Shown: piece after piece, positions 44,013-63,276 of the stretch
How the letters are laid out: each line of letters opens with the position of its first letter
Position numbering within the stretch: position 1 is the first letter of the stretch
Source: Bryobacteraceae bacterium
GTDB lineage: Bacteria > Acidobacteriota > Terriglobia > Bryobacterales > Bryobacteraceae
Reading direction: 5' to 3'
Assembly (NCBI GenBank): GCA_019748195.1
Contig: JAIEPW010000063.1
Span: 1-64,000 of the forward strand
Length of the DNA: 64,000 nt
The notes under the pieces: generated by a model
Told to the model about the DNA's origin: nothing
Database searches by the model: none
What the model saw: only the letters and a program-made list of their open reading frames with translations
Made by a program: the position numbers and the translations under genes

Positions 44013-46634
44013 CTAGCGCGTCCGCTCGCCGCCAATCCATATCGGGGACGACCAGGCGCGCGCGCCGTTGACCTGAATCACACGGAGGTAATAGTAATCG
44101 CCCGGTCGCGGCGAACTACGATCCACGTACTCAAAGCTGCCGTCCAGGGGAGCTTCGGGATTCACCAGTTGCACGGTGATCTTGTCGGCATGCCGGTCCA
44201 CGGGCAAGTCGCGTGTCAGCAGCCCTTCCGTCATTTCGTGGAAGGGGAAGATCGCCGTGGAGCCAGGGATTGTGGCGTTGGGGCGGATCTGCGGCGGCGA
44301 GACGCCGTGCTCCTGCGCCGTTTCCAGCCGGATCAGGAGACGTGTAGAAGGCGTCACCTGATCCAGATCCAGAATCAGCTTGTCCGCGGCGCCGCGGGTG
44401 CTGTGCGCGAACTGAATGCGGTTCGGATTCGCGGGATCCAGGCGGGCGAACTCCACCGCGCGGTTGTCGAACATCGGCTGAAATCCCTGGAGCTTCGCTC
44501 CTTCCACTTCCAGCACGCCCTTCCACTCCCGATAGCCGCGAGGATTGTCGCGGATGAACGGCTCCGAGCTGGAATAGAACGCGACATCCACACGCGAGCG
44601 CGGCTGAAGGGTGGTTCGAGCAAATCGCTGCCCGTACACGACGTCGCCGTTCTTCACGATCTCCACCTGATCCAGCGGTCCCGTGCCGGAGACGCGCGCC
44701 GCGATGCGGCGGTCCGCCGAATACGGGATCCGCCGGCCCGCCGGCTGGTCGTTCACGCGGAAGTCCATCAGGATGCGCTGCGCGTGGCTGGTGGCATACG
44801 TGGCGCGCTCCCGCAAGCCGTCGAAGATTCCGTCCGCCGTCTTGGCGGGCGCGCGCACCGCCACCAGAGCGTTCATCTGTTGCAGGCTGCCCGCGGGCAT
44901 CGTGCCGCTATAACCGGGGCGGGTGCGATGGTCGTCGGAGGCGCCCAGAAAGCCGATCTCAGCTCCGTGCTTCAGGTAATAGTTGCCGAACCATTCGAAC
45001 GTTCCGTGCATGGACGCGATCTCCACCAGAGGCTGCAGGTCCGGATCGGAGTAGCGCCAGTCCCCCGCCTGGTGCGCGTGCGGGATTACCAGCGCGTTCT
45101 TCGCAGTCTCCTTCTCGCGCAGCCCCTGGTAGAGCCGCGATAGCGTGTATGCGGTCTGGCTGGGGACCCGCGCCCGGCCGGGCGTCCGGAAGAAAACATT
45201 GTGGTGCCCGCCCATCATCCGCTGCGAGGTCCACTCGTACGCCAGGAACGCGATGAATCGCCCAGGCTCGGAAAAGCGGCGCACGGCCTGATCGATGGTG
45301 CGCCACTCGCTATCGTCCATCCAGATGTCGTGCTCGCTCAAGCCCGCGAAGTCCAGCCAGGCGTCCTCCCTGGCCCAGCGGTAGAACGCATCCACGGTTC
45401 CCATGCCTTCGCTGAACCCGCTGTGCGCGTGCGTCTCTCCCCAGTAGATGCGGCGCGAGGGATTCGTTTCCACCCAAACCGGGTTGCTGAAGGCCTCCAG
45501 TTTTCCATCCGCGGAGCGGACCTGGAAGCGATAAGTGCCGGGCTGGTCGATCCGGACATCGCTCACGACCACAAGACCGTCGCGGCTGGGTGGTATGGCG
45601 CGCACCACGGTCCCGTTGAGCAGGAGTTCGTACGCGGGTTGCTCTCCGGTGGCCCGGTTCCAGCGATCGTCCTCGCGCCGCACCGCGACCGCCAACGCCT
45701 CGCCGGGCGCAACCACGGACGGCGCGGTGGCGCGAACCGAAGCCGCCTGATTGCCGGTCACGGTCAGTCCAGGCCAGACCGGCGTCAAGAAACGGCCGTT
45801 TGGCGTCAGGCTGACATAGATCGGATACAGAAGCCGGTCATTGCTGAAACTGGGCATCCGGATGCCCCGCGACCCAGTACGCCGGTCGCCATAGGTGAGT
45901 GTGATCGTTTCGCCGGGGCGCAACGCTTCACCCTCCAGCCGGAAGGCCGGGTTAGCGGCCTGACCGCGGAATCCGCCGTGCATGCCGCCCCAGGGAACGG
46001 TGATCGGCGTCAGCTTGGCGCCGGGGTTTGAGGCTCGCGCCGAAACGTAGTTGTCCGCCTCCGGGTTGGTGTTCTGCGGAGGCCCGCCGTCGTTCATCAG
46101 GGTCCGCGTGGCCATCACCATGCCGCCGGGAAGCATGGGCTGGTCGCCGATGGTGATGGCCTGCTCGAAACTCTGGAAGCTGGATGCCGCGTACGGTCCC
46201 GCGGCGCTCACCTGGATCACGGGAATGCTTTTGGGTTTCTCGTCCTTCTGGCGGAACTCGGCGATCAATCCGTCCACGTTCTCGATCAGCAGCTTCACGT
46301 TCACGGCCGCGGGCGGGGCGGTCTGATCCCGGGCGGCGTCCTGAAGCGCGAACAGTCCCGCCAGTTCCTGCGTCGCATTCACGGGTACGGGACCTCCGGT
46401 GAGGGAGTAGGCGTTCAGCCAGTCCCACAGCACCAGGCCGCGCCGCACCACGTTTTCCGCGGTCGTCGGGCCCGCCGCGACCTCCCGCTTGAGTTCCTCC
46501 ACCTGCCGCCGCAAGGCTGGATTCAGATAATCCGCGCGAGCGCTGTCCTGCGCCGTCAGCATCCACACCGCGCCGAGTGACGCCGTAATCACGGTCGCCA
46601 GGACCACCGTGGACACAATCGATTTCTTGGGCAT
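44013..46634 (-). CDS. DUF3604 protein with N-terminal membrane anchor
   Basis: 873 residues from MPKKSIVSTVVLATVITASL, a signal or membrane anchor. After a helical and beta-sandwich region (about 25-390) the DUF3604 domain begins at RIYWGETHAHSGFSEG (about 395). It has metal-site-like segments SEHDIWMDD, LVIPHAHQAGDWRYSD and GASDDHRTRPG that recall PHP-type amidohydrolases. The C-terminal ending WSSPIWIGG is shared with the two other copies in this window. Probably periplasmic; the activity of DUF3604 is not established. A Met at 46670 lies upstream but is less signal-like. Confidence 0.85.
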   Translation of the reverse strand: MPKKSIVSTVVLATVITASLGAVWMLTAQDSARADYLNPALRRQVEELKREVAAGPTTAENVVRRGLVLWDWLNAYSLTGGPVPVNATQELAGLFALQDAARDQTAPPAAVNVKLLIENVDGLIAEFRQKDEKPKSIPVIQVSAAGPYAASSFQSFEQAITIGDQPMLPGGMVMATRTLMNDGGPPQNTNPEADNYVSARASNPGAKLTPITVPWGGMHGGFRGQAANPAFRLEGEALRPGETITLTYGDRRTGSRGIRMPSFSNDRLLYPIYVSLTPNGRFLTPVWPGLTVTGNQAASVRATAPSVVAPGEALAVAVRREDDRWNRATGEQPAYELLLNGTVVRAIPPSRDGLVVVSDVRIDQPGTYRFQVRSADGKLEAFSNPVWVETNPSRRIYWGETHAHSGFSEGMGTVDAFYRWAREDAWLDFAGLSEHDIWMDDSEWRTIDQAVRRFSEPGRFIAFLAYEWTSQRMMGGHHNVFFRTPGRARVPSQTAYTLSRLYQGLREKETAKNALVIPHAHQAGDWRYSDPDLQPLVEIASMHGTFEWFGNYYLKHGAEIGFLGASDDHRTRPGYSGTMPAGSLQQMNALVAVRAPAKTADGIFDGLRERATYATSHAQRILMDFRVNDQPAGRRIPYSADRRIAARVSGTGPLDQVEIVKNGDVVYGQRFARTTLQPRSRVDVAFYSSSEPFIRDNPRGYREWKGVLEVEGAKLQGFQPMFDNRAVEFARLDPANPNRIQFAHSTRGAADKLILDLDQVTPSTRLLIRLETAQEHGVSPPQIRPNATIPGSTAIFPFHEMTEGLLTRDLPVDRHADKITVQLVNPEAPLDGSFEYVDRSSPRPGDYYYLRVIQVNGARAWSSPIWIGGERTR

Positions 46635-46727
46635 AAGCCGGCTCCGGTTGTGCTGTCGATTGTAGTCCATCGCCGGTCGCGCGGCGGCTCGAATCTGCTA
46701 TACAATCCGATCTCGGACTTTTCCCTC

Positions 46728-46964: not shown

Positions 46965-47054
46965 CGGCGCTTTACAATTCGCCCGGCTCCGTTGACCGCC
47001 CGTTTGGCGCTGTGATACGAATAACGCGGCTTGCGGTTTTCGCCGGGAGGAATT

Positions 47055-49628
47055 GTGACCAGGTCCAACGCAACGGCGCAACGTGTTCTGATGATCGGCC
47101 TGATGGGCGGCGCGGCCCTCTTCTGGTATCTGCTCCAGATGAACGCGCAGCCGCCGAGCCTGCAACAGCGGGTTGGGAAGCTGCGGGCGGAAGTGGACTC
47201 CGTTCCCACCACGGAAGCGAACTACGGCGAGCGGCGCGCGACGCTGGAGGAATGGGGCGACGACCTCGCCATGCGCCGCCGCCTGCTGGTGACTTCCGAC
47301 ATCCGCTCCGCCTTTTTCCGCTTCCCCACGGTGACGCCGCAATCCGCCGCGCTGGTAACGCGGTGGACGAAGTTCCTGGCGTTCTGCGAAGAGAATGCGG
47401 AGAAGACCGGTTCCCTGGCGCGAACCGACAACAACACGCTGGTGGCCGGCGCGTATTCCACGTTGACTTTCGAGTACACGGTGGGCGATATCGAGTTGCA
47501 GAAGAACGGCGGATTGCGGATCGGCCAGAAATTCATCTCCAACCGCCCCCGCCTGCAGGCGAACAACCCGGCGGGAGATTCCTACGTGACCTTCAAGGTC
47601 ACCAGGGGTTCCGCGAAGGTGGAACCGGGACTCACCCTGTGGCAAAGCGTGTTCAGCAGTATCTTCGCTCCGGTTCCGATGCCGCTGATGAAGATCACCG
47701 AGGGCACGCTCCGCAAGGGCGACAAAGTTCTGATCACGGTGGGCGATACGTCGGGGCTGGCTCGCGGCTACCGCCCCATGCCTCGCGATGCCGACGAGTT
47801 CCAGTTCTACGTCGAAATCGACCCGGACGGCTCCGGCATCTTCCAGCAGGGCGCCATCACGGCGACCCCCATCTTCGGCGACAACGCCGTCGCTGTAAAC
47901 GCAGTGGCTCCCTCCATCGTTGCCGTCAACGAGCCATTCGCCGTCCGCGTGCGCCTGGAGGACCAGTACGGCAATCCCGCCCGCTTCGACGGCGGCGAGT
48001 TCCAGGTGCTGCTGAATGGCAAACCGGCAGGCTCCGCCACGGTCGCCAAGGGACAGTACACAGGCAGGCTGGACGGTGTCCGGCTGCCCGCCGAGGGCGC
48101 GTATCGCTTTCAGGTGAGAAGCTCCGATGGCAGCTTCCGCGCAGTCAGCAACCCGGTGCTGGCGGAGCGCAACCCGAAGCAGCGGGTTTACTGGGGAGAG
48201 CTGCACGGCCACTCCGGCTGGGAGGAGGGAACCGGCTCCGTGCCCCGCTACTACGATTTCGCGCGCGATGTCGCGTTTCTCGACTTTGCGTCGCTCACGG
48301 GCCATGACCTGTTTCTCGCCAAGCCCGGCTGGGAGCAGATCCGCACGGAAACCGCCAAGGCGAACCGCCCCGGCGCCTTTGTCGCGTTCATGGGCTATGA
48401 ATGGACGCAGACCTACGACAAGGGCGGGCATCACAACGTCTTCTTCAAGACCGATAAGGGCAGGTACGTGGAGTTTCGCGAAGCGCCGCGCCCGGATCTG
48501 CTCTACGCGAGATTGCGCCAGGTGGACGATCCGGGCAACGTCCTGATCATCCCCCATGCGCACGAGGCCGGCGACTGGAACTACAGCGATCCGGAAATGC
48601 AGCGCCTCTCGGAAATCTACTCCGGGCACGGCAGCTTCGAATACTTCGGGAACCGTTTTCTGAAGCGGGGGTTTCGCATGGGATTCATCGCCGCCAGCGA
48701 TGATCACAGCGGACATCCCGGCTACGCTCCGGCGCTCGTGTCCACCCGAGGCGGACTGGCCGCGGTTTATTCTTCGACACTCGATCGCGACGGCATCTGG
48801 GCGGGCATGAAGAATCGCGCGACCTACGCGAGCAGCGGCAAGCGGCCGGTGCTGCAGTTCTCCGCCGCGGGCAAGATCCCCGGCGAATCCGTGGACGCCG
48901 GCGTCGCGCCCACGTTTCACGCGCGCGTGCTGGCCACCGCGGCGATCGATCACATCGACGTGATTCACAACGGCGTCCCGGAATACAGCAAGGATTTTCT
49001 CGCGCCCAAGCCGGGCGCGCCTTCCGGCGTGCAGATCATGCTGTTTTCGCCGACGGAGACGCCCGGCGATCAGGTGCGGCCGCCGCTCGGCGAGGTGAGC
49101 TGGGGCGGATGGATCGAGGTGGTCAACGGCCGGATCGGTTCCATCGAACCCCTGGGCCTGGACGCGATCACCGATCAGTTCCACCTGGTGGATGATCGCC
49201 ACGTGTGGTTCTGGTCGCAAACGCGCGGCGATTTCGACGGCGTGATGCTGAAGCTGTCGTCCTCACCCGCCGACACCCGGATCCACATCCGCGTCTCCAC
49301 GCTCGACGCCGACGCGGGCGGCACAGGCACGGGCCGCGGCATCAACTGGACCAGCGGCATCCCCAGCCGGGAGAAGAAGCACGAAGTCTCGTTTACGCTG
49401 GGCGATCTGGCGAAACAGCGGGGCAAGTTTGATTTGTCGCCGCGCGCCATTGTGTTCGCGCAGAAGGCGGCTCTGGAATCGCCGTTGGACGCGGCCTTCA
49501 GCTACAGGCCCTCGAAGGCCCCCGCGCAGGACGACTACTTCTACCTGCGATTGGTCCAGGTGGACGGCGAGGCGGCGTGGAGCAGCCCGATCTGGATCGG
49601 CCAGGAAAAGTCAGCCGCGAAGAAGTAA
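47055..49628 (+). CDS. DUF3604 protein with N-terminal membrane anchor
   Basis: 857 residues from a GTG at 47055, chosen because GGGAGGAATT precedes it; the frame is open from 47031. A hydrophobic anchor (RVLMIGLMGGAALFWYLLQ) is followed by a coiled segment and beta domains, then DUF3604 from RVYWGELHGHSGWEEG (about 377) with LTGHDLFL, LIIPHAHEAGDWNYSD and AASDDHSGHPGY. The end is WSSPIWIGQEK. Residues 377-610 align well with the gene at 44013, so the two are paralogues placed head to head. A metal-dependent hydrolase is plausible but unproven. Confidence 0.87.
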   Translation: MTRSNATAQRVLMIGLMGGAALFWYLLQMNAQPPSLQQRVGKLRAEVDSVPTTEANYGERRATLEEWGDDLAMRRRLLVTSDIRSAFFRFPTVTPQSAALVTRWTKFLAFCEENAEKTGSLARTDNNTLVAGAYSTLTFEYTVGDIELQKNGGLRIGQKFISNRPRLQANNPAGDSYVTFKVTRGSAKVEPGLTLWQSVFSSIFAPVPMPLMKITEGTLRKGDKVLITVGDTSGLARGYRPMPRDADEFQFYVEIDPDGSGIFQQGAITATPIFGDNAVAVNAVAPSIVAVNEPFAVRVRLEDQYGNPARFDGGEFQVLLNGKPAGSATVAKGQYTGRLDGVRLPAEGAYRFQVRSSDGSFRAVSNPVLAERNPKQRVYWGELHGHSGWEEGTGSVPRYYDFARDVAFLDFASLTGHDLFLAKPGWEQIRTETAKANRPGAFVAFMGYEWTQTYDKGGHHNVFFKTDKGRYVEFREAPRPDLLYARLRQVDDPGNVLIIPHAHEAGDWNYSDPEMQRLSEIYSGHGSFEYFGNRFLKRGFRMGFIAASDDHSGHPGYAPALVSTRGGLAAVYSSTLDRDGIWAGMKNRATYASSGKRPVLQFSAAGKIPGESVDAGVAPTFHARVLATAAIDHIDVIHNGVPEYSKDFLAPKPGAPSGVQIMLFSPTETPGDQVRPPLGEVSWGGWIEVVNGRIGSIEPLGLDAITDQFHLVDDRHVWFWSQTRGDFDGVMLKLSSSPADTRIHIRVSTLDADAGGTGTGRGINWTSGIPSREKKHEVSFTLGDLAKQRGKFDLSPRAIVFAQKAALESPLDAAFSYRPSKAPAQDDYFYLRLVQVDGEAAWSSPIWIGQEKSAAKK

Positions 49629-49631
49629 CCG

Positions 49632-50114
49632 CTATTGAACGGGCGTTCCGTATGGAACCAGCGTCTTGATCCGCTCCGCGCTTTCCACCGCGGCGATCTT
49701 CCAGCCGGCTCGCGTTTTTTCGAGGAACATGGTTTGCGCCTCGGTGCGGTCCTCGAAGACGAATTCCACTCGCGCCTTCACCCTCTGTTCCGGGAGCGGC
49801 TCGGGGTCCAGCACGGCGATGCCCTTGATCCCCGCGCCGGATTCGCGGATGCCGCGGGCGAAGTCCGGGGATTCGGATTTCACCTTGCGCAGCGCCTGTT
49901 CCATGGGGCCGGTATATTGCGCCAGGTAGGCGTCCACGTTGCCCTCGCGGGCGGCGTCGAGCATGGCGAAGATCGCGTCCTGAGGGCTGGCTTCGCGGCG
50001 CTCCGTCCATTTCGATATCGCGGCGTTGAAGCCGCCCTGCTTCGCCACTACGATGCCCACGGTCACGGCGAGCACGGTAAGGGTGATGATCCGAGCCAGT
50101 CTCTGCTTGTTCAT
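49632..50114 (-). CDS. small membrane-anchored NTF2-like protein, last gene of the SPFH operon
   Basis: 160 residues. An N-terminal helix (IITLTVLAVTVGIVVA) with a short basic start, then a cone-like fold: DAIFAMLDAAREGNVDAYLA, strand VKARVEFVFEDRT and a closing TRAGWKIAAVESAERIK. This is the pattern of DUF4878/NTF2-type lumenal domains, so the protein is probably periplasmic and membrane-tethered. Its start abuts the hflK stop with no gap, so it is part of the same operon and may be an accessory subunit of the HflKC-like complex. The stop lies 3 bases from that of the convergent DUF3604 gene. Confidence 0.65.
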   Translation of the reverse strand: MNKQRLARIITLTVLAVTVGIVVAKQGGFNAAISKWTERREASPQDAIFAMLDAAREGNVDAYLAQYTGPMEQALRKVKSESPDFARGIRESGAGIKGIAVLDPEPLPEQRVKARVEFVFEDRTEAQTMFLEKTRAGWKIAAVESAERIKTLVPYGTPVQ

Positions 50115-51092
50115 TTACTTCCTGTTGGGCTCGCCCTTGCGAATGATGGTCAGGTCCAGGTTGCCGTTCTTGTCGACGATCAGCTTTTTCATCCTGGGCA
50201 GAATCTGTTCCATGGTTTCGACGTAGAGGCGATGCCCGTTCACCTGGGAGGCCTTGGCGTATTCCGCCGCGACCTGGGTGAAGCGGATGGCGTCGCCTTG
50301 CGCCTCGTTGATCTTGCGTTCCTTGTAAGCCTGCGCCTGCTCCAGCATCTGCTGCGCCTGCCCGCGAGCCTTGGGCACGACGTCGTTGGCATACCCCTGG
50401 GCTTCATTGACGATGCGGGAAGAGTCGGCGCGTGCGCTGGCGACGTCGCGGAACGCGTCCGCTGCCTCGGGCGGGGGCGCGGCGCTTTCCATGTTCACCG
50501 TGGAGAGAATCACCCCCGCGCGATACTCGTTCAGCAGTTTCTGCGCCGCGGCCAGAACCTCGGCTTGAATGCCCTGCTTCTCGGTGGTGAGCACGGAATC
50601 CACGTTACGCATCGCGATCCGCTGGGACAATGCGGTCTCGACGGCGGAGCTCACGCTTCTTGACACGTCTTCGGTCCGGAAGAGATAATCCGCCGGCGCC
50701 CCGACGGAGAATTGCACCACCACGCGGATGCTGATGATGTTCTGGTCGCCGGTGAGAAACTGCGACTGCAAGGGCTGCGATCGCCCCGTGACGGCGTCGC
50801 CCGGCTCGCCGCCGATCAGCAATCGCTGCTGCTGTTGCACCTTGAGCTTCCGAACCTGATCGATGGGCCAGGGCAGCGCGAAGTGAATGCCGGGCGGGAC
50901 GCGAGGCTCCACCACGGCGCCGAAGCGCGTCACGACGGCCTGCTGATCGGTCCACACGAAGTACACGCCGGACAACAGCCAGACTCCGAGAATCGCGATC
51001 GCGATGCGGGCTCGCGGCGCGGGCATCCGCTCCGGCGGCGCCGGGGCCGGATCGCCGAGGATCCGGAGTTCATCGGTGGGCTTCGCGCTCAC
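50115..51092 (-). CDS. hflK: HflK-like SPFH protein
   Basis: 325 residues, shorter than the E. coli protein (419). Starts at GTG. A cytoplasmic Pro-rich N-terminus precedes one helix (about 29-45, IAIAILGVWLLSGVYFVW), then the SPFH domain: AVVTRFGAVVEPRVPPGIHF, LPWPIDQVRKL, LTGDQNIISIRVVVQFSV, and the helical tail RGQAQQMLEQAQAYKER. HflK with HflC forms a membrane cage that limits FtsH proteolysis. No ftsH lies in the window. The gene is second to last in an operon that begins with an ATPase-HflK fusion, so two different HflK-like chains are made together. Confidence 0.9.
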   Translation of the reverse strand: MSAKPTDELRILGDPAPAPPERMPAPRARIAIAILGVWLLSGVYFVWTDQQAVVTRFGAVVEPRVPPGIHFALPWPIDQVRKLKVQQQQRLLIGGEPGDAVTGRSQPLQSQFLTGDQNIISIRVVVQFSVGAPADYLFRTEDVSRSVSSAVETALSQRIAMRNVDSVLTTEKQGIQAEVLAAAQKLLNEYRAGVILSTVNMESAAPPPEAADAFRDVASARADSSRIVNEAQGYANDVVPKARGQAQQMLEQAQAYKERKINEAQGDAIRFTQVAAEYAKASQVNGHRLYVETMEQILPRMKKLIVDKNGNLDLTIIRKGEPNRK

Positions 51093-51093
51093 G

Positions 51094-51984
51094 CTACCGG
51101 GCGCCTCCTTCGCCGCGCATCATCACCTTCAGCAACTCGGAATCCGAACTGAGAATCGCGGTGGTCTTGTCGTCGAAGATCTTCTTGTAGGATTCCAGCG
51201 TTCGCAGCAGGTTGTAGAATCGCGGGTTGCGCGAGTACGCCTGGCTATACACGCGGGTTGCTTCGGCATCGCCTTCGCCCTTCACTTTTTCCGCTTGCCG
51301 GTAGGCCACCGACAGCATCTCCTCCTTCTGCCGGTCCGCATCGGCGCGGATGCTCAACGCCTGCTCCTCGCCCTCGGCGCGATACTGGCGCGCGATGCGT
51401 TCGCGCTCCGCGCGCATGCGTGCGTAGACGCTCTGCTTATTCTGCTCCGGAAGATTCAACCGCTTGATGCGCACGTCCACCACGGCGATCCCGTATTGCC
51501 GCAGCGCGGCCTTCCCGGTCACCTCCGTCAGACGGTCCAGCATCAGCCCGGTCTTCGTCGCCTGCAGGTTCGTGGACACGATGCTCTCCATGTCGTGATT
51601 GCCCAGGGCCGCCGACAAGCCGGACCACACGATGTCATGCAGCCGCATCTCGGCGGACGCCGGATCGCTCACCGTTTCGACGAAGCGCTTCGGATCTTCG
51701 ATCTTCCATGCCACGTAGCTCTCGATCACCAGGTTTTTCTTGTCGCGGGTCAGAAACTCCGACGGCCGCGGATTGTAGATCCGCAAACGGCGGTCGAACC
51801 TCGCCGCCGACTGAAACGGCCACTTCCAGTGCAATCCCGCCTCGGTGATGACGTACAGCGGCCGCCCGAATTGCGTCACCAGCACGGACTCCGTCTCGCG
51901 GACCGTTAAGAAGGTCAGCCACAACGCCGCCAAGCCGGCGGCTACGCCGAGCGGGATCTTGTATCTCAACATCGTGTCAATCAT
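51094..51984 (-). CDS. hflC: HflC-like SPFH protein
   Basis: 296 residues. Signal-anchor near 9-25 (PLGVAAGLAALWLTFLTV), then SVLVTQFGRPLYVITEAGLH and WKWPFQSAARFDRRL, SPFH strands, and NPRPSEFLTRDKKNLVIESY, characteristic of HflC. The tail AEKVKGEGDAEATRVYSQAY is the helical region that assembles the cage, and FYNLLRTLESYKKIF is the HflC C-terminal signature. The start at 51984 overlaps the stop of the ATPase-HflK fusion by 8 bases, and the stop lies one base before the hflK start. An alternative Met five codons later (MLRYK) is possible. Confidence 0.92.
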   Translation of the reverse strand: MIDTMLRYKIPLGVAAGLAALWLTFLTVRETESVLVTQFGRPLYVITEAGLHWKWPFQSAARFDRRLRIYNPRPSEFLTRDKKNLVIESYVAWKIEDPKRFVETVSDPASAEMRLHDIVWSGLSAALGNHDMESIVSTNLQATKTGLMLDRLTEVTGKAALRQYGIAVVDVRIKRLNLPEQNKQSVYARMRAERERIARQYRAEGEEQALSIRADADRQKEEMLSVAYRQAEKVKGEGDAEATRVYSQAYSRNPRFYNLLRTLESYKKIFDDKTTAILSSDSELLKVMMRGEGGAR

Positions 51985-54958
51985 TGGGTTCCCTCGCCGG
52001 AAGCGGCGTCACCGCCGCGCCGGGCGGCGCGATCTCAATCCCGTCCTCCAGCAGCAGCAGGTGGCGGCGTCCCTTGCCCGCATCCATGATCATCTTCTTC
52101 TTGCCGGGCAGCACTTCTTCCATCGTTTCCAGATACAGCCGCGTCCCCGTGATCTCCGGGCTCGCGCGATATCCTTCCTCGCGGAGCAGAAAACGAGCCG
52201 CGTCCCCGCCGGATCGATTCTTCCTCGCCACGGAATAGCCTTCCGCCCCGGCGATGGCTGCCTTGGCATTCCCGCGCGACACCGCCACCTGCTCGTTGCG
52301 GTACGCTTCCGCCTCGTTGATCAGCCGGCTCTTCTCCTCGTACGCTCCCGACACTTCCCGGAACGCATCCACCACCTCCAGGGAGGGATGAACATCCAGC
52401 AGGTGCACACGCAGCACTTCCACGCCGGAGCGATACTGGTCCAGGCGGGCCTGCAGCTCCCCCTTCACCCGCGCCTCCACCGCCTGCCGCCCGGTGGTGA
52501 GAATCTCATCGAGCGAGGTGGAACTCGCCACCGCGCTCACGGCGCTCTCGGCGGCCGACCGGACCGTAGCCTCGCCGTCCAGTTGCCGCATCAGGTATTC
52601 CGCGGGCTTGCGCAAGCGATAGTGGACCACCGCGCTCACCTCCATCATGTTCTGATCGCCCGCCAGCATCAGCGACTCTTCCGGCTTTTTTTGAAATCGC
52701 CCCGAACGGTGCTGCACGTTCCACTCATAGGCGGCCGGTTCGCTTTCCCGCTTGCCGTCCGGGTTGGACCGGAAGCCGACCTCGACGGCGCGCACCCTCC
52801 CCGCTTCGATCCGCGTCAGTGTGTCGATGGGCCAAGGTAGCTTGTAGTGCAAACCGGGACCCTCGTCCGGCTCCAGTCGCCGCCCGAATCGCTCCACCAC
52901 TCCCGCTTCATTGGGGCCGATGCCGTGAAATCCCGAGAGCAGGATCAGCGCGAATCCGGCGAACAACGCGGGACGCAGATACTGGCGCCTGCGGGCCACC
53001 ATCCGGGCAAACGCCTCGCGCGGATGGAAACCGTCGGCCAGGCGTAGCACCTTCGCCAGGGGACCGGACACCGAGGGACCCACGTACCGCCCGTACCATC
53101 TCCCCATCGCGCTCTCGCCCGACCGCTCCACCCGGAGCAGCCGGAGCGAGTTGATCATCACAAAAAACGACGACAGTTGATGCGTCACCGCCGCGCCCAC
53201 CGGCGACAGGATTCCAGTCGCCGCCAGCCCCACCGCCGCGACGTTCACGACGCCCGCGAACAGCAGGATATTCTGCCACGCCGTGGTCACAGCCTGACGG
53301 CTCACTTCGATCAGCTTGGGCAGCTTTTCCAGCGAGCTCCCGAGGTACACCACGTCAGCCGCTTCCGCCGTGACATCGCTCGCCCCCGCGACCGCGATCC
53401 CGACATGGGCGGACGCCAGCGCCGGCGCGTCATTGACGCCGTCGCCCACCATCCCCACAAACCGTCCCTGCGAGCTGAATTGCCGAACGCGATCCAGCTT
53501 CTGCTCCGGCAGAAGCTCGGCTTCCACATTCAAGATTCCGGCCTCGCGCGCGATCACCTCGGCGGCGCGCCGGCGGTCTCCGGTCAGCATCACCTGGTGG
53601 GTGACGCCGAGCTCATTCAACTGCTCCACCGCCTCGCGGATTCCGCCGCGCAGCCGGTCCCGCAGCAGAATCGAGCCCGCGAGCTTTCCGCCCACGGACA
53701 CCAGGACCGCGGTGGCGCCCGCGCGATCGGCCTGCTCCAGCAGCGGTTCGACACCGGAGATCCCGTTCTCCGCCAGATACGCGGCGTTCCCCGCGCGGAT
53801 GGTTTGGCCGTCCACCACGCATTCCGCGCCGCGGCCGGGCAGAATCCGGCTTTCCCCGGCAAACGGCACTTTCAACTTGCGGCGCGCGGCTTCCTCCACG
53901 ATCACCTTTGCCAGCACGTGATCCGACCCGCTTTCGGCGGCCGCCGCCATCCGCAGCAGCGCGTCTTCGGCGACCTCCAACGGAACGACGCGCAGGATGT
54001 CGAAGCGTCCGGAGGTCACCGTCCCGGTCTTGTCGAAGATCATGGTGTCGATCTTGGCCGCCTGCTGCAGCACCGTTCCGCCGCGGACCAGGATGCCGCG
54101 TCGCGCCAGGCCGCCGATCGCGGCAACCATCGCCGTGGGCGTGGCCAGGATCAGCGCGCAGGGACACGCCACCAGCAGCACCGCTACGGTTCGCAGCCAG
54201 TCCTGCGTGAAGTAATACGTGGCCCCCGCCGCCGCCAGCAGCGCCGGAAGGAAGTAGCGTGCATATCGATCCGCCAGCCGCTCCACCGGCGCCCGCTGCT
54301 CCCTGGCCTCCTCCACCAGGGCAACCACTCGCGAGATGGTTGTTTCCGAGCCCGCGCGCTTCACGCGGACGCGCAGCAGGCCGTTGCCGTTCAGCGTCCC
54401 GGAGAACACATCCTCCCCCGCGAACTTCTCGCGCGGCAGAGCTTCGCCGGTAATCGTGCTCTCATCCACTTCCGACGATCCCGACTCCACCAGACCGTCG
54501 GCGGGAATCCGTTCCGCGGCCCGCACCAGGATCAGATCGCCCTCCACCAGCGACGCGACATCCACTTCGCGCTCTTCGCCGTCGCGGATCAGGCGCGCGC
54601 GGCGCGGCATCATCTCGACAAACCGCTGGATCGCGGCGTTGGTGCGCCCCGCCGCGTACGCCTCCAGGCCCTCCCCGATCAGCATGATGAACATCGCCTC
54701 CGCGGCCGCCAGATACTCGCCCACCGTCAGCGCGGCGATTACAGCGATGCAGATCGCCAGATCCGCGGAGATCTGCTTGTTCAGCAGCGCCGAAATGGAG
54801 TTGTAGAAGATCCGGTAGCCGGCGAGCACCGTGATCGCCGCGGCGATATCCAGGCCGAACACCGTGCGGATGTATCCGGTCAGGTACAGCAGCAGCAGCA
54901 GGCCGACGAAGGCCGCGAAGCCGAAATACCGAATGCGTTCGGAGCGTTCAGAATCCAT
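51977..54958 (-). CDS. P1B-type metal-transporting ATPase fused to an HflK-like SPFH domain
   Basis: 993 residues in one uninterrupted frame. Residues 1-610 are a P-type ATPase: helices near 11-30, 34-55, 61-80, 82-101, 235-250, 255-281, 559-583 and 588-608; actuator TGEA (170-173); the metal-site CPC (265-267) in the sixth helix; phosphorylation motif DKTGT (309-313); nucleotide loop with DHVLA (346-350) where family members usually have HPLA; hinge GDGVNDAP (505-512). There is no N-terminal CxxC metal-binding domain. The eighth helix carries HQLSS (593-597) rather than a clear Cu or Zn signature. A linker (610-660), a ninth helix (661-679) and an HflK-like SPFH domain (680-960, with VVERFGRRLEPDEGPGLHY and MLAGDQNMMEVSAVVHY) follow. 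The odd helix count puts SPFH outside the cytoplasm. First gene of the hflC-hflK operon. Confidence 0.88.
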   Translation of the reverse strand: MDSERSERIRYFGFAAFVGLLLLLYLTGYIRTVFGLDIAAAITVLAGYRIFYNSISALLNKQISADLAICIAVIAALTVGEYLAAAEAMFIMLIGEGLEAYAAGRTNAAIQRFVEMMPRRARLIRDGEEREVDVASLVEGDLILVRAAERIPADGLVESGSSEVDESTITGEALPREKFAGEDVFSGTLNGNGLLRVRVKRAGSETTISRVVALVEEAREQRAPVERLADRYARYFLPALLAAAGATYYFTQDWLRTVAVLLVACPCALILATPTAMVAAIGGLARRGILVRGGTVLQQAAKIDTMIFDKTGTVTSGRFDILRVVPLEVAEDALLRMAAAAESGSDHVLAKVIVEEAARRKLKVPFAGESRILPGRGAECVVDGQTIRAGNAAYLAENGISGVEPLLEQADRAGATAVLVSVGGKLAGSILLRDRLRGGIREAVEQLNELGVTHQVMLTGDRRRAAEVIAREAGILNVEAELLPEQKLDRVRQFSSQGRFVGMVGDGVNDAPALASAHVGIAVAGASDVTAEAADVVYLGSSLEKLPKLIEVSRQAVTTAWQNILLFAGVVNVAAVGLAATGILSPVGAAVTHQLSSFFVMINSLRLLRVERSGESAMGRWYGRYVGPSVSGPLAKVLRLADGFHPREAFARMVARRRQYLRPALFAGFALILLSGFHGIGPNEAGVVERFGRRLEPDEGPGLHYKLPWPIDTLTRIEAGRVRAVEVGFRSNPDGKRESEPAAYEWNVQHRSGRFQKKPEESLMLAGDQNMMEVSAVVHYRLRKPAEYLMRQLDGEATVRSAAESAVSAVASSTSLDEILTTGRQAVEARVKGELQARLDQYRSGVEVLRVHLLDVHPSLEVVDAFREVSGAYEEKSRLINEAEAYRNEQVAVSRGNAKAAIAGAEGYSVARKNRSGGDAARFLLREEGYRASPEITGTRLYLETMEEVLPGKKKMIMDAGKGRRHLLLLEDGIEIAPPGAAVTPLPAREPND

Positions 54959-55105: not shown

Positions 55106-58102
55106 TTGAGACGGTTCCCGCTGCGCCTTTCCCTGCTGACATTATTGGTGGCGCCGGCCTACTCCGAGATCACCGTCCGCCTCCTGCTCGGGGTCACGGA
55201 CACGACCCCCACCAATTGGGACGGATCCCTGGAGGTTCGCGGCGGCCGGATCGCGCGACTGGAGGGCTGGCGATTTGAAGGCACGGACGCCATCACCGGA
55301 AACTCTTGGAAGATTTCCACCCGGCCCATCCGCCAGTTTGGCGGGGAAGGCTTGTTCGGTAATCGTAACGTCGTGCCCGTGGGCGCCAACGGTCTGGTGG
55401 TGGTTCTCGACGGCGCGAGTGACAATACCCGCCTGGAAGTCAAAACCTCACAAGGCGACTTCATCGTCAGCCTTGCCGAGATCCCCTTCGGCCGTCCCAA
55501 TTATTACCTTAACCGGCGCGCCTGGGCGGATCGCGCTTCCTCGGCGGCGCAGTTGACCCGCGACGCCGAGGAACAGGATTATCCCGCCGCCGCTCTCCGC
55601 AAGGACGGCAGCATAGACGTCGCCTATCTCGAGTTCCAGCACAGCAAGGATCACAACCTGCTGCGGGCCAATCTGAACGAAGCGCCCAAGCAGTACAAAC
55701 AGTACGCGGCGCCCACCGGCGGCGATCGCATCCTGCTGGCGCGCTACGCCGCGGGCAAACTGGGCGCGCCGCTGGCGATCACGCCCGCGGGCGGCGATGT
55801 CTATCGCCCGGCGGTGGCCGTAGACGGCGCGGGGCGGACGTGGGTCTTCTGGTCCCAGAACGAAAAGGGCAACTTCGATCTCTTCGCCCGCCCCGTCACC
55901 GAAGGGAACCCCGGACCGGTCATCCGCATCACGCGCGACGCCGGATCCGATATCGATCCCGCGGCCGCCACGGATTCCGAAGGCAACGTGTGGGTCGCCT
56001 GGCAGGGCTGGCGCAACGGCAAGGCCTCGATCTTCGCCGCCAGGCAGCAGGGAAACGCCTTCTCCGCCGCGATGACCGTGGCGGCGTCCAAGGGAAACGA
56101 ATGGAACCCCGCCATCGCCGCCGACTCCCGCGGCAGCGTCACCGTCGCATGGGACAGCTATCGCGCCGGCAACTACGACATCTATATGCGCGCCGCGACG
56201 GGCGGAAGGTGGGGCCCGGAAACCCCGCTGGCGGCTACCGCGCGATATGAAGCCCATCCCGCGATCGCCTATGAGCCCGGCGGCCGGCTGTGGGTGGCGT
56301 ACGAAGAAGGGGGTGAGCGCTGGGGCAAGAATTTCGGAGCCCAGGATACCTCCGGCGTCGCCCTCTACCAGGGCCGCGCCATCCGGTTGCGGGGCGTCGA
56401 ACCGGGCGGCAGAATGGTTTCCGCCCAGGTCGATCCCGGCACGGCCATGCCCGGCGTCTTCGGCAGCCCGCTTTATTCCGGATCGCCCGAAGCAATCCGC
56501 GTGGATCAAACCGCGCGCCAGAACGACACCGACGCGTGGCTGAAGCCCGATCCGCGGAACGCAAAAACGCGAATCCCCAATCGCGATTCGCGCCAGGCCA
56601 CCGCCCCCCGCAATTCCCTGCCCCGCCTCACCATCGATCCCTCCGGACGAATATGGCTGGTGTTCCGCAGCATCCATCCGTTCTGGTGGAACCCGCTGGG
56701 CACTGTGTGGACCGAGTACGTCGTCAGCGGCGACGGCGCCTCCTGGACCGGTCCGGTGTTCCTCCCTCACAGCGACAACCTGCTCGACAACCGCCCCGCG
56801 GTAATCGCCGCCAAGGCCGGCGAATTGACGGTGATCGGCTCGGCCGACGGCCGCCGCCAGTACAACCTCATCGAGAAGAACGCGACGTCCACGGGCCTGG
56901 ATGGCGCGGTGATCACTGACCCCTATAGCAACGACCTTTGGGCCAACGTCATCACGCTGCCCGCCGGTTCCGGACAACCCGTCGTGGTTCCCGCTCCGGC
57001 TTCGGCGGCCGCGCCGGCTGACCCGCTGGACGCCGTCGAGCTCGGCGCGGTGTCCAGGATGCGAAACCACCGCTCCGGAAAGCTAAAGCTGCTGCGCGGC
57101 GAGTTCCACCGCCACAGCGACGTGTCCATGGACGGCGCTCGCGACGGATCGCTGCTGGACCAGTGGCGCTACATGATGGACACCAGCTACATGGATTGGA
57201 CCGGGTGCTGCGACCACGACAACGGCGGCGGACGCGAGTACTCCTGGTGGATCTCCCAGAAGCTGACCGATATCTTCTACACCCCCGGCAAGTTCGTTCC
57301 GATGTTCAGCTACGAGCGCAGCGTCAGCTACCCCGAGGGCCATCGCAACGTACTCTTCGTGCAGCGCGGCGTCCGGCCGCTGCCGCGCCTGCCGATCAGC
57401 CGTCCCAACGAAAGAAAGAACGCGCCGGACACGCAGATGCTGTACGCCTACTTGCGCGAATTCGACGGAGTCGCGGCGTCCCACACCAGCGGAACGCTGA
57501 TGGGCACCGATTGGCGCGACAACGATCCTGTTCGCGAGCCCATGGTGGAAATCTACCAGGGCGATCGCCAGAACTATGAGATGCCCGGCGCGCCGCGCGC
57601 CAACGAAGAGAAGGATTCCATCGGAGGCTGGCGTCCGCTGGGCTTCATCAACCTCGCGTTGGAGATGGGCTACAAGCTGGGCTTCCAGGCAAGCTCGGAC
57701 CACGTCTCCACCCACATGAGCTACTGCAACATTTATGCCGCCGATTCCACCCGTGAAGCGCTGTTGGATGCCGTGAAGAAACGTCACCTCTACGCCGCCA
57801 CCGAGAACATCCTCGCCGATGTCCGCAGCGGACCCTACATGATGGGCGACGCCTTTTCCACGGCAACGCCGCCCGCCATCGACGTGAAGCTGTCCGGCAC
57901 CGCGCCGTTCGCCAAAGTCCACGTCATCAAGGACAGCAAGTACGTGTACACCATTTCGCCGGGCAAGGCGGACGTTCGATTCTCCTGGCGCGATAACGCT
58001 CCCGTGCCGGGCAAGACCAGCTACTACTACATTCGCGGCGAACAACAGGACGGCGAACTCGTCTGGGCTTCGCCGATGTGGATCACCTACACCGGCAAGT
58101 GA
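55106..58102 (+). CDS. exported beta-propeller-like protein ending in a DUF3604 domain
   Basis: 998 residues. The TTG at 55106 is preferred over an ATG at 55076 because GAGGAGGAG precedes it and the product then starts with a clean signal peptide (MRRFPLRLSLLTLLVAPAYS). The middle (about 220-560) has repeated blades of the form A-x-D-S-x-G-x-V-W-V-A-W followed by DIF/DIY-x-R (such as AATDSEGNVWVAW and AIAADSRGSVTVAW), a propeller similar to sialidase or Kelch folds. From about 662 a DUF3604 domain follows (LRGEFHRHSDVS, CCDHDNGGG, ASHTSGTLMG, QASSDHVSTHMS), ending WASPMWITYTG. Probably a periplasmic or surface enzyme; substrate unknown. Confidence 0.82.
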   Translation: MRRFPLRLSLLTLLVAPAYSEITVRLLLGVTDTTPTNWDGSLEVRGGRIARLEGWRFEGTDAITGNSWKISTRPIRQFGGEGLFGNRNVVPVGANGLVVVLDGASDNTRLEVKTSQGDFIVSLAEIPFGRPNYYLNRRAWADRASSAAQLTRDAEEQDYPAAALRKDGSIDVAYLEFQHSKDHNLLRANLNEAPKQYKQYAAPTGGDRILLARYAAGKLGAPLAITPAGGDVYRPAVAVDGAGRTWVFWSQNEKGNFDLFARPVTEGNPGPVIRITRDAGSDIDPAAATDSEGNVWVAWQGWRNGKASIFAARQQGNAFSAAMTVAASKGNEWNPAIAADSRGSVTVAWDSYRAGNYDIYMRAATGGRWGPETPLAATARYEAHPAIAYEPGGRLWVAYEEGGERWGKNFGAQDTSGVALYQGRAIRLRGVEPGGRMVSAQVDPGTAMPGVFGSPLYSGSPEAIRVDQTARQNDTDAWLKPDPRNAKTRIPNRDSRQATAPRNSLPRLTIDPSGRIWLVFRSIHPFWWNPLGTVWTEYVVSGDGASWTGPVFLPHSDNLLDNRPAVIAAKAGELTVIGSADGRRQYNLIEKNATSTGLDGAVITDPYSNDLWANVITLPAGSGQPVVVPAPASAAAPADPLDAVELGAVSRMRNHRSGKLKLLRGEFHRHSDVSMDGARDGSLLDQWRYMMDTSYMDWTGCCDHDNGGGREYSWWISQKLTDIFYTPGKFVPMFSYERSVSYPEGHRNVLFVQRGVRPLPRLPISRPNERKNAPDTQMLYAYLREFDGVAASHTSGTLMGTDWRDNDPVREPMVEIYQGDRQNYEMPGAPRANEEKDSIGGWRPLGFINLALEMGYKLGFQASSDHVSTHMSYCNIYAADSTREALLDAVKKRHLYAATENILADVRSGPYMMGDAFSTATPPAIDVKLSGTAPFAKVHVIKDSKYVYTISPGKADVRFSWRDNAPVPGKTSYYYIRGEQQDGELVWASPMWITYTGK

Positions 58103-58154: not shown

Positions 58155-59426
58155 ATGGCTTACCGGTTCTTAGCAGCCTGCCTCGCCGCGACCGCGATGT
58201 GGGCGCAACTGCCCCCCGCGACGCCCGAGTCGCAGGGGATGTCCACCTCCCGCCTCAAGCGCCTGGACGCGCTGATGGAGCAGTACGTGAAGCAGGGCAA
58301 ACTCGCGGGCGCCGTGACCCTGGTGGCGCGAAACGGAAAATTGGTCCACCGGAAAGCCCACGGGCTGCGCGACGTGGAAAAGAACGCGCCCATGCAGGCC
58401 GATTCGATGTTCCGCATCGCCTCGCAGACCAAGGCGATCACCAGTGTAGCCGCCATGATGCTTGTGGAAGAAGGCGCGCTGCGCCTGAACGATCCGGCCG
58501 GCCGCTTCATCCCCGCTTTCCAGAAAACCCAGGTGATTTCCGAATCGGGCCCGGCTCCCGCGCGCCGCCCGATCACCATCCGCGACCTGCTGACGCACAC
58601 TGCCGGCGTCTCCTACGGGGTGAACTCCCTGGAGAAAACGTATCGGGACGCGAATCTGCACATGTGGTACTTCGCGGATAAAGACGAGCCGCTCAGCGCC
58701 GCGATCGACAGGCTCGCCGGGTTGCCCTTCGATGCCCAGCCCGGCGAGAAATGGGTCTATGGCTTCAGCTCCGATATTCTCGGGCGCGTCGTGGAAGTCG
58801 CTTCCGGCATGGCCCTGGATCAGTTCTTCCAGAAGCGGATCTTCGAGCCGCTGCGGATGAACGACACGTACTTCTTCGTTCCGGAGGGCAAGGCGGACCG
58901 CCTGGCCACGGTTTACGGGCTCGCCGACGGCCGCATCCGGCGCGCGCCGGAGAAAGGCCGCGCGGGACAAGGCGAATACGTCGAAGGTCCGCGGAAGTGC
59001 TTCTCCGGCGGCGCGGGCCTGGTCTCCACGGCGGGCGATTACGCGCGTTTCCTGCAAATGCTGGCCAACGGGGGAGAACTCGAGGGCGCACGCCTGCTGA
59101 GCCCCGCCTCTGTCCGGGCGATGACCGTCAACCAGACCGGCAATCTCTACGGAGATGCCGGCATGAGCTTCGGGCTTGGTTTCTCCATCGTGGAGGACAT
59201 CGGCGCCACCGGGCGGCTCGCCTCGCGCGGGGAATTCGGGTGGGGCGGCGCCTATCACACCTCCTACTGGGTGGCGCCGGAGGAAGGCTTGGTCGCGTTG
59301 TTCTTCACGCAGTTGCTCCCCGCCACCGGCAGTGACGTTCACGACAAGTTCCGGGCGCTGGTGTACCAGTCCGTGGTGGGTACGCCGGGTGCACGGCCCG
59401 CGGCGCGCGCGGCGGGAGGCAGGTGA
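58155..59426 (+). CDS. serine hydrolase, beta-lactamase family (EstB-like)
   Basis: 423 residues with a signal peptide ([18 protein letters not shown]). SxxK is SQTKAIT (about residue 93), YxN is represented by YGFSSDILG (about 198) and the third motif region is [10 protein letters not shown] (about 360). Such proteins are usually periplasmic esterases rather than beta-lactamases; [20 protein letters not shown] is a typical start of this group. A second protein of this family is at 35902. The gene follows the DUF3604 gene by 52 bases and may be co-transcribed. Confidence 0.88.
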
Positions 59427-59837: not shown

Positions 59838-62800
59838 TCAGAAGCGATACTTCACCGCGAACTGAATGATCCGCGCTTCCGTTGAAGTGTTCACAATCTG
59901 CCCGAATCCCGTGCCCGCGGTCACGCCCGGCACACCGAAATTCGGGTGATTGAAGGCATTGAAGAACTCCGCCCGCAGTTGGAAGGAATTCGACTCGCTC
60001 ACCCGGAACGTCTTGGCGAGGTTGAAGTCGAAATTCACCAGCCCGGGACCGCGAAGAATTCCGATCCCGGCGTTGCCGAAGGCCTGGTTGGGAACGAAGC
60101 CAACCGTCCCCGGCGTGGCCGACAGCGGGACGAAAGCGTTGGTATCGAACCAGCGGTCCACCGTACGCTGGTCTTCGGGCAAACTCCCGTCCGCGATCCG
60201 GTTCGGGCGGCTGCGGCGCTCCCCGCCCAGGTTCAGAATCTGGGCCTGGTTGATGGTCAACGCCAGTCCGGTCTGCCAGGTGAAGATTGGCGAGAACTCC
60301 CAGCCGCCGAACGCCGCGTCCATGAACCCGGAAGCGTCGAAACGCTTGCCCCGGCCGTAGGGAAGTTGATACACGGCGCTGGTAACCCACCGGTGCGTCA
60401 CGTCAAACTCCGCCGGTCCGTACATGTCGCGGCGGCTGAACGGATTCTGCGGCTCCCGGAAAACGCCGACATCGACGCCGTTGCCCGCTCCCGAAGTGGA
60501 GAGATGATCCACGGAGTCGGTCAGCGCCTTGCCCCAGGTGTAGGAACTCAGGAAAGTCAGGCCCGCCGAGAAGCGCTTCTCCAGCCGCACCTGCAGCGAA
60601 TGATAGTTGGACCTGCCCAGGTTCTCCTGGAACTGAATATCCCCCAGGAAGTTCTGCGGCGCGTAAACGCGAGCGCCCGTCACCGGCGCGCCCGCCGCGT
60701 TGAAGGTAAACGTGAAGGGGTTCAGGTTCCGGAACGCGGCAAGCTTCGATCCCTTGTTGCCGACGTAGGCGATGTCGAACACCACGTCCCGCATCAGCTC
60801 TTGCTGAATGCCGAAGTTCCACTGCTGCACGTACGCCGACCGCTGCCCCTGATCCTGCGCGCGCCTGCCGACGGTGGCCAGGTTCACGCGCGAGAGGTCG
60901 ACAAAGCCGTCAGGGATGCCGCGATCCAGCTTGATGTTCGCCTGGGTGTCGAGCAGGCGGCCCGCGCCGCCGATGTTCGAATCCGCCAGGATGATGAACG
61001 GCGGATTGAAGCCCAGCAGCCCTTCGCGGCCCTGCCGGTTGGAATGGTTGAAGAACATCCCGTAGCCCGCCCGGATCACGGTGCGCGTCGTCGCCTGGAA
61101 CGCGAAACCCACGCGCGGCGCGAAATTATTGTTGTCGGGATAGATCAGCGAACGCTCGTAGAGATTCCCGTTCTTGTTCGCGAGCTGGAACGACTGCGTC
61201 TGAAAATTCCAGTTGGCTGCCTGCCCGTCCCGCTCGATCGGCGGAGTCGAGTATTCGTAGCGGATGCCCAGGTTCACGGTCAGCCGGCGATTCACTTTCC
61301 AGTCGTCCTGGAAGTAAGTGAACACCATGCGTTGGAACATGTTGAACACCGTCTTCGAATCCTGCTGGTAGCGGGTGGGGAAGCCCATCAGCAGGTCCGC
61401 GATCGCCCCCTGCCACTGCCCGTTCTGATTGCTGAACCGTCCGCTGAAGTCGAAGTTCCCCAGCAGGGAGCCGACATCCAGAATGCCCGTCTGCACATGC
61501 AGGAACTCGCCGCCGAACTTGAACACGTGAGCCCCGCGATTCATCGTGATGGCGTCGCGGAAGTCGTAGCTGCGCGGAGTCTGGAATTGCGGAACGGATG
61601 TGGTGCGGCCCAGGCGGCGTTGGATGCCTCCGGGAAAGTTGAACACCGGTATGCCGCCGCAGATCGACTCATCCGTCGGCGCGCCTCGCAATCCGATCAG
61701 CGCCTCCGGACAGCCCGAACCGAAGTTCGGCGGATTCTGGAAAAAGTCACCCTTGGCGAACCCGAACCGGAAGTCGTTCACCACGCGCGGCGAGAGGATG
61801 TAATTCGCGCCGATCGCCAGACCCTGGCTGCGCAGATCGGCCGCGCCGAACGTGTCGTTGAAGGAGCCTTCCGCCAGTCCCGGACGCGGCGCCGGCCGGA
61901 ACAGCAGCGAGTCGTAGAAGGAGTAGCGCCCGAACCAGTTGAACTTGTCCGTCAGGTTGTTGTCCACCCGGATGTCGAACTGGTTGGAGTCCTGCCGGTC
62001 CACCGGCACGTTCACGAAGTTGTTGTCGATCTGCCCCGGCGCGCCGGTATTCGGCAGGGGCGCAACGGCCATCACCCGCCGTCCCACCGCGTCGATCCGG
62101 TTCGCCGGAATCTGCCAGCAGAATCCCTGCCCGTTGTTGCAATCCGGCGTCGCCGGCACGCGGAAATCGGTGCCCGTGTCGTTCGGGTTGAACGGGTTGA
62201 AGATCGGGATCGTGAAGCGGCCTTGGGTCCAGGAAGGCTGCGGGACGCTGGTGAAACGCACCGTGCCCGCCCGATCCCGCAACCCCTCATAATCGCCGAA
62301 GGCGAACAGCTTGTTCTTTACGATCGGTCCGCCCAGGGTTCCCCCGAACTGGTTGCGCAGCCGGAACGGCTTCTCCGCCCCCGACTTGTTCGAGAAAAAA
62401 TTCGCCGCGTCCAGCGCGCGGTTCCGATGGAAGTAGTACGCCGAGCCGTGATAGTCGTTGGTTCCCGACTTGATCACCGCGTTCACCAGCGCTCCCGCGC
62501 TGCGCCCGTACTCGGCCGAGTACGCATTGGTCTGGATCTTGAATTCCTGCAGCGCGTCGATCGACGGCTGGATCACCTGGATGTTGTTGCCGCGAAAGCT
62601 GTTTGAGTACGACGTGTTATCCACGCCGTCCAGCAGAAAGGCATTGTGGAAGGCCCGGTTCCCGTTGACGTTGAACGCCCCCCGGAACCCGATGGAATTC
62701 AACCTCGGCGTCGGCAGCAGCACGCCCGGCGACAACGTCGCAAGCTGGTTGTAGTCGCGTCCGTTCAGCGGCAGTTCCACGATCTTCCGCTGGTCCATCA

Positions 62801-63194: not shown

Positions 63195-63276
63195 GGAACC
63201 TCCTGGAGGCAAATCTGTATTAGGATCTTACAGATGTTACCGAAGGATTGTGACAGAGACATTTCGAGGGTGGCAA

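Follow-up and report, generated by a model that had tools for sequence, protein, structure and literature searches.

The window, a 64,000-nucleotide stretch from a Bryobacteraceae bacterium (assembly GCA_019748195.1, contig JAIEPW010000063.1, positions 1–64,000), carries a minus-strand operon whose first gene joins a heavy-metal P1B-type ATPase to an HflK-type SPFH domain. HflC, a plain HflK and a small anchored protein follow on the same strand:

51977..54958, minus strand: P1B ATPase–HflK fusion gene, 993 residues (family profiles and full-length homologues)
51094..51984, minus strand: HflC, 296 residues (TIGR01932, 217 bits, cut-off 134), its start overlapping the fusion stop by 8 bases
50115..51092, minus strand: HflK without extension, 325 residues, GTG start (TIGR01933, 231 bits, cut-off 159)
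49632..50114, minus strand: conserved fourth gene, a 160-residue protein with an N-terminal anchor helix and an NTF2-like domain

A single base separates HflC from HflK, and the fourth gene begins directly where HflK ends.

Two domains in a single frame

The fusion frame (51977–54958, minus strand) is open for 993 codons from its ATG and divides into four parts, all on the minus strand:

53132..54958, residues 1–609: P1B ATPase part, with transmembrane helices (TM) 1–8 and the actuator (A), phosphorylation (P) and nucleotide-binding (N) domains (TIGR01525, 548 bits, and solved-structure matches)
52991..53131, residues 610–656: cytoplasmic linker, fast-evolving
52916..52990, residues ~657–681: ninth transmembrane helix (charge pattern and AlphaFold2)
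52052..52921, residues 680–969: HflK-type SPFH domain with a C-terminal helical (hat) region (TIGR01933, Band_7), predicted periplasmic

A sequence-only reading of this stretch had proposed that both halves form one polypeptide, and this holds: each passes a curated family cut-off within the single frame. NCBIfam TIGR01525 (heavy-metal P-type ATPase) matches residues 66–607 at 548 bits (cut-off 346), TIGR01933 (HflK) matches residues 680–969 at 199.5 bits (cut-off 159.4), and Pfam adds E1-E2_ATPase, Hydrolase and Band_7, the last at 70 bits. The junction, where an assembly error might have surfaced, has neither stop nor frameshift. The linker evolves fast, its length varying from 41 to 65 residues over the comparable span in homologues. 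Ratios of non-synonymous to synonymous substitution against the nearest homologue (~0.14 and ~0.13 for the two halves) are low, which points to purifying selection on both. An internal Met in the block 640–662 occurs in only 5 of 40 fusion homologues (ATG being considered, with GTG and TTG starts outside the count); this rarity speaks against a conserved ATG restart that would yield a separate SPFH protein. Conservation in other genomes rules out an assembly artefact or frameshift as the origin of the fusion, which is confirmed as a genuine single-frame gene. A plasmid origin was also rejected, since none of the best 5,000 plasmid records covers 80% of the fusion.

Class of the ATPase half

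By its sequence, the front half is a complete CPx-type P1B ATPase, for which transport is predicted. The catalytic and metal-site motifs, compared over 40 fusions, are:

residues 170–172: TGE motif, invariant in 40/40
54158..54166, minus strand, residues 265–267: CPC metal motif of TM6, invariant in 40/40
54020..54034, minus strand, residues 309–313: DKTGT phosphorylation motif, Asp309 invariant in 40/40
53423..53446, minus strand, residues 505–512: GDGVNDAP motif, GDGxNDxP invariant in 40/40
53168..53182, minus strand, residues 593–597: TM8 HQxxS motif, His593 and Gln594 in 40/40, Ser597 in 39/40

The phosphorylation motif reads DKTGT in 39 fusions and DKTGS in one. The HQ pair of TM8 sets these proteins apart: of 98 other P1B entries compared whose motif could be read, none has it. 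A single divergent planctomycete fusion has HE in its place. His thereby stands at the specificity position of TM8, which is Met in Cu+ pumps and Asp in ZntA-like pumps. In the HP dipeptide of the N domain, His347 is invariant and the Pro (residue 348, 53915–53917) is replaced in 38 of 40 fusions, the window protein included.

Among solved structures, the ATPase half comes closest to P1B ATPases for Cd, Zn and Cu (Z 37–32 over ~600 residues). None of the established subgroups fits its CPC plus HQxxS. P1B-1 (Cu+) pumps require MxxSS in TM8, and its absence disfavours a copper pump; P1B-2 (Zn/Cd/Pb) pumps require the TM8 Asp (DxG), and the fusion falls outside the Asp clade; P1B-4 pumps combine SPC in TM6 with HEG(S/G)T in TM8. 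CtpC-type (P1B-6-like) pumps, which carry CPC and HN (PMC9374683), are nearest by motif, sharing the CPC with the fusion, where HQ replaces HN. The P1B halves of the fusions form one clade (support 0.985), outside the sampled Cu, Zn/Cd, P1B-4 and CtpC-like groups.

The SPFH half and its predicted topology

Against E. coli HflK (chain 7vhp_E), the SPFH half scores an E value of 8e-31, aligning to residues 146–355 of the E. coli protein. It passes the curated HflK score and has the SPFH domain with its hat region; the single N-terminal anchor and short cytoplasmic tail of HflK are absent, as ~656 residues, eight helices among them, come before the anchor. The ninth helix is flanked by five Lys/Arg before and two after. 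This excess on the near side predicts a periplasmic SPFH domain, as in HflK and as the sequence-only reading had placed it. The alignment column for the FtsH-contact arginine (Arg191 of E. coli HflK, PMC12048511) was uninformative, the published numbering also differing from that of the translated sequence, and was not used.

An AlphaFold2 model of the whole fusion contains both folds, with a helix at 657–674 and SPFH elements beyond it (mean predicted local distance difference test score (pLDDT) 74, predicted template modelling score (pTM) 0.52). Structure comparison of this model covered the ATPase half only; the SPFH half was assigned by sequence.

Distribution and operon context

Fusion homologues occur in 41 of 150 genomes of the window's order, 37 of them intact in one frame, three split over contigs and one interrupted by an assembly gap of 100 N; the intact ones are 56–76% identical to the window protein. 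An apparent deletion in G437 is such a gap of 100 N. A further 19 genomes of the phylum, presumably the Acidobacteriota, carry the fusion at 43–46% identity and come from three other families. It is also present in 3 of 294 genomes from Planctomycetota (the phylum of a Gemmataceae genome). Altogether ~60 genomes from at least five families have it, so that the possibility of its being confined to a single genome falls away. Searches at 1e-190 in 141 genomes from the phylum to which a Nannocystis genome belongs, and in 200 from that of a Muproteobacteria genome, found no full-length match; such blanks prove little.

All 21 neighbourhoods compared, that of the window included, keep the order fusion–HflC–HflK on one strand, and a fourth protein of ~160 residues follows HflK in 20 of them. 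Most genes of the module overlap or are closely spaced, and what flanks the module varies. One planctomycete (G718) has the identical four-gene set. The fourth protein is modelled by AlphaFold2 at pLDDT 89, with weak matches to NTF2-like folds; its alignment contains no conserved Cys or His.

Some neighbourhoods hold additional genes. The Gemmataceae genome has a 549-residue, soluble-looking protein between fusion and HflC (L172 6508–8157, minus strand), with a DUF2325 match below threshold only. Genomes of family f48 encode, directly before the fusion, a 252-residue multi-helix protein with a His-rich loop (L141 6403–7158 and L143 7391–8146, both plus strand); it has no Pfam or NCBIfam match and by eye resembles a nickel/cobalt-type transporter. 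The f48 fusions themselves start with a His-rich stretch.

Other exporters fused to HflK

Two further exporter families are joined to HflK in the same manner. Of 199 planctomycete genomes, 11 have HflK fused to an ArsP_1 permease of the SO_0444 Cu/Zn efflux type, as does one genome (G012) of the window's phylum; three of the fused permeases were scanned and match the SO_0444 type at 357, 386 and 391 bits (cut-off 300). HflC and HflK follow in the neighbourhoods read, the exception being a poorly called contig (L204). A CDF transporter is fused to HflK in three genomes of the window's phylum (G113, G122 and G180), again followed by HflC and HflK, with Pfam Cation_efflux and, in the two tested, TIGR01297 at 89.5 and 85.1 bits (cut-off 82.35).

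Looser arrangements also occur. In the planctomycete G547, two permease-like genes are followed by an HflK that bears a membrane extension, by HflC and HflK and by a P1B ATPase encoded on its own. The L170 locus has the P1B ATPase as a separate gene in an operon of this kind. An HflK of this planctomycete metal operon (L170 6324–7150, plus strand) has a 275-residue multi-helix N-terminal domain without a Pfam match, perhaps a fourth kind of HflK fusion partner.

ZIP zinc transporter genes adjoin permease modules (four tested with Pfam, another two judged by eye), and one module has an ArsR/SmtB regulator gene beside it. Together with the parallel exporters and the His-rich start of the f48 fusions, these neighbours link the HflK–HflC–HflK triad to the export of metal, the simplest candidate being a divalent one such as zinc. 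We consider a divalent substrate rather likely, and Zn2+ would be the most likely metal.

Relation to canonical HflK and FtsH

The window's family was sampled at one genome per genus (61 genomes). All 22 genomes with an above-cut-off HflK have a linked pair of them, one in a long frame, and no HflK was found outside the module in these genomes. The long-frame member is the fusion; in G852 its frame has only 685 codons. Families f48 and f21 encode a canonical HflK elsewhere in the genome (~275–284 bits, against ~177–199 bits for the module pair). This coexistence marks the module as a separate paralogue system, distinct from ordinary HflK/C. The module HflC differs from canonical HflC at many alignment columns. 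FtsH is encoded in the window genome (865 bits), on another contig (C80).

Residues that mark exporter-fused HflKs

Comparing 29 exporter-fused HflKs (16 with P1B, 10 with permease, 2 with CDF and 1 with an unassigned partner) with 38 others brings out one residue common to all of the former:

52388..52390, minus strand: codon of His857

This is the most discriminating SPFH column, with His in 29 of 29 exporter-fused HflKs against 1 of 38 others (0 of 22 module HflKs, 1 of 16 canonical HflKs). His779 is present in 72% of the exporter-fused proteins against 3% of the rest. Trp746 and His750 occur in all P1B and CDF fusions and in the unassigned one, and in none of the permease fusions.

Comparison with known systems

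The E. coli HflK/HflC–FtsH system shares with the window operon the HflK-type SPFH domain and hat region, the directly downstream hflC and the predicted cytoplasm-to-periplasm topology. It differs in that the window N terminus is an entire P1B ATPase, the operon has a second, plain HflK, FtsH is encoded elsewhere and the histidine is specific to the exporter fusions. CtpC/PacL1 of Mycobacterium tuberculosis offers a pump with the TM6 CPC and a TM8 His, organised with a partner membrane protein; the window protein, by contrast, has HQxxS rather than HN in TM8, belongs to a separate clade and carries its SPFH partner in the same chain in place of a DUF1490 protein. No DUF1490/DUF6110 (PacL-type) partner appears among the four operon products in Pfam or NCBIfam.

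ZntA (P1B-2) and CopA (P1B-1) share fold and catalytic motifs with the ATPase half, at ~33–34% identity over the aligned core; unlike them, the window protein has no N-terminal heavy-metal-associated (HMA) domain, has His for Asp or Met in TM8 and ends in an SPFH domain. Flotillin microdomains likewise use SPFH oligomers to organise membrane proteins, whereas the window SPFH domain is of HflK/C type, is predicted to lie in the periplasm and has its client in the same chain.

The sequence-only reading knew of no described protein of this kind. In the open-access papers searched on SPFH evolution, HflK/C and metal efflux, we found no description of an exporter–HflK fusion either; database entries may contain the architecture without remarking on it. 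Each part is known, and their combination as a recurring system appears undescribed. To our knowledge, the known resident of HflK/HflC-type cages has so far been FtsH. Here the covalent link itself names the resident as a metal exporter, and three unrelated families supply it.

Flanking DUF3604 genes

Upstream of the fusion lies a divergent gene that is a possible client of the module:

55106..58102, plus strand: DUF3604 protein with a signal-like N terminus

Two more DUF3604 genes flank the operon (44013–46670, minus strand; 47031–49628, plus strand). All three proteins have signal-like starts and, by eye, PHP-like His/Asp motifs. The 55106–58102 protein has relatives encoded close to the module in four f48 genomes, in G525 and G407 and in the planctomycete G718, where the gene is on the same strand, 36 bp upstream. 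The DUF3604 proteins may be metal-dependent clients.

A proposed SPFH-ring export complex

The fusion, its conserved operon, the predicted topology, the three exporter families in parallel and the histidine signature were computed directly. We propose that they describe a dedicated SPFH-ring metal-export complex in which several pumps are tethered and the metal is received on the periplasmic side, a reading that we hold to be almost evenly balanced between right and wrong. With HflC and HflK encoded alongside the fusion, the natural interpretation is a mixed HflK/HflC assembly that bears the pump, and the fusion probably forms an oligomer with them. The sequence-only reading had embedded the pump in an HflKC-like cage; the fusion itself, the co-encoded HflC and HflK, the parallel exporter fusions and the histidine specific to exporter-fused HflKs favour that picture, and comparison lends the inferred assembly good support. 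That reading also suggested that metal might be concentrated inside the cage, delivered to a periplasmic client or coupled to membrane protein turnover, which are possibilities here. The operon, its broad conservation and the parallel fusions go beyond it.

In such a complex, the eight helices and cytoplasmic A, P and N domains would export a divalent metal to the periplasm, and the ninth helix would lead to the SPFH domain, occupying the HflK position among HflC subunits. Plain HflK would fill the remaining HflK positions, perhaps because a pump at each would be too bulky to fit. The ring would thus tether several pumps and cover or surround their exits on the periplasmic side. His857, with His750 and His779 in many members, would bind or buffer the emerging metal, and the NTF2-like protein would serve as an anchored periplasmic accessory. 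Release of metal into a functional enclosure is possible, with doubt somewhat prevailing, and a metal role for the exporter-fusion histidines is suggested tentatively. Since HflK/C of E. coli can form an open, nautilus-like shell (PMC12048511), the enclosure need not be sealed.

More widely, P1B ATPases, SO_0444-type permeases and CDF transporters might all plug into the same HflK–HflC–HflK ring and discharge into a periplasmic enclosure in which the conserved His binds metal, making up a bacterial membrane-attached metal compartment; we regard this generalisation as conceivable and rather doubtful. If true, SPFH cages would be transport platforms or chambers, beyond protease regulation. The fusions would then lend themselves to testing: their partner is fixed, their class of substrate is predicted, one histidine stands out as the candidate, and some genomes have a canonical HflK where others lack it.

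Several points weigh against the complex as drawn. A pTM this low does not fix the placement of the ATPase half relative to the SPFH half, and by analogy with the open E. coli shell a sealed metal chamber is not a given. No metal sensor is seen beside the window operon. The periplasmic part has no conserved Cys, and the permease fusions lack His750. His857 could have been inherited from a common ancestor and play a structural part. The deep branches of the SPFH trees are poorly supported, which leaves the number of independent fusions unfixed; a single ancestral triad whose exporters were exchanged and repeated fusion would both be compatible with them.

Among the alternatives, the one that survives best reduces the SPFH ring to a membrane platform that clusters or stabilises exporters, as PacL1 does with CtpC, with enclosure and metal binding by the ring irrelevant. 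CtpC is a P1B ATPase that depends on its PacL1 scaffold and gathers in foci in the membrane (PMC9374683). Organising membranes is a common role of SPFH proteins, and an SPFH partner is the only thing that the three exporter families have in common. However, flotillin is not required for CtpC foci (PMC9374683), and a pure platform leaves unexplained why a histidine should be near-exclusive to exporter-fused HflKs. We consider this explanation unlikely.

The module might instead be an HflK/HflC variant of the FtsH system, in which the pump couples metal state to FtsH or is itself shielded from it. E. coli HflK/HflC belong to FtsH (PMC12048511), the genome encodes FtsH and the module HflK is the sole HflK in the window's family. 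Yet FtsH lies on a different contig, and f48 and f21 keep a canonical HflK besides the module, which is hence not simply an FtsH partner; the identity of the exporter switches while remaining a metal exporter. Control of proteolysis seems improbable.

To a comparable degree we doubt that the complex exists to hand exported metal to periplasmic or secreted metalloproteins such as the nearby DUF3604 proteins. CtpC and other P1B pumps have links to extracytoplasmic metallation, and DUF3604 relatives do recur near the module, in the window and in the genomes listed above. In most other neighbourhoods, however, no such relative was detected near the module, and the metal need of DUF3604 proteins is read from the PHP-like motifs only, the sequence search having found no solved relative. 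That the fusion is a passive accident or an artefact without functional coupling is very improbable: gene fusions can persist neutrally, but this one spans ~60 genomes and at least five families with both halves under purifying selection, in a constant operon order and alongside parallel fusions of two unrelated exporters.

Further observations at the locus

A promoter and terminator scan at the ends of the window operon gave nothing notable. Beyond the 55106–58102 gene, an outer-membrane beta-barrel receptor with a carboxypeptidase regulatory-like domain (59838–63212, minus strand) adjoins a beta-lactamase-family gene (58155–59426).

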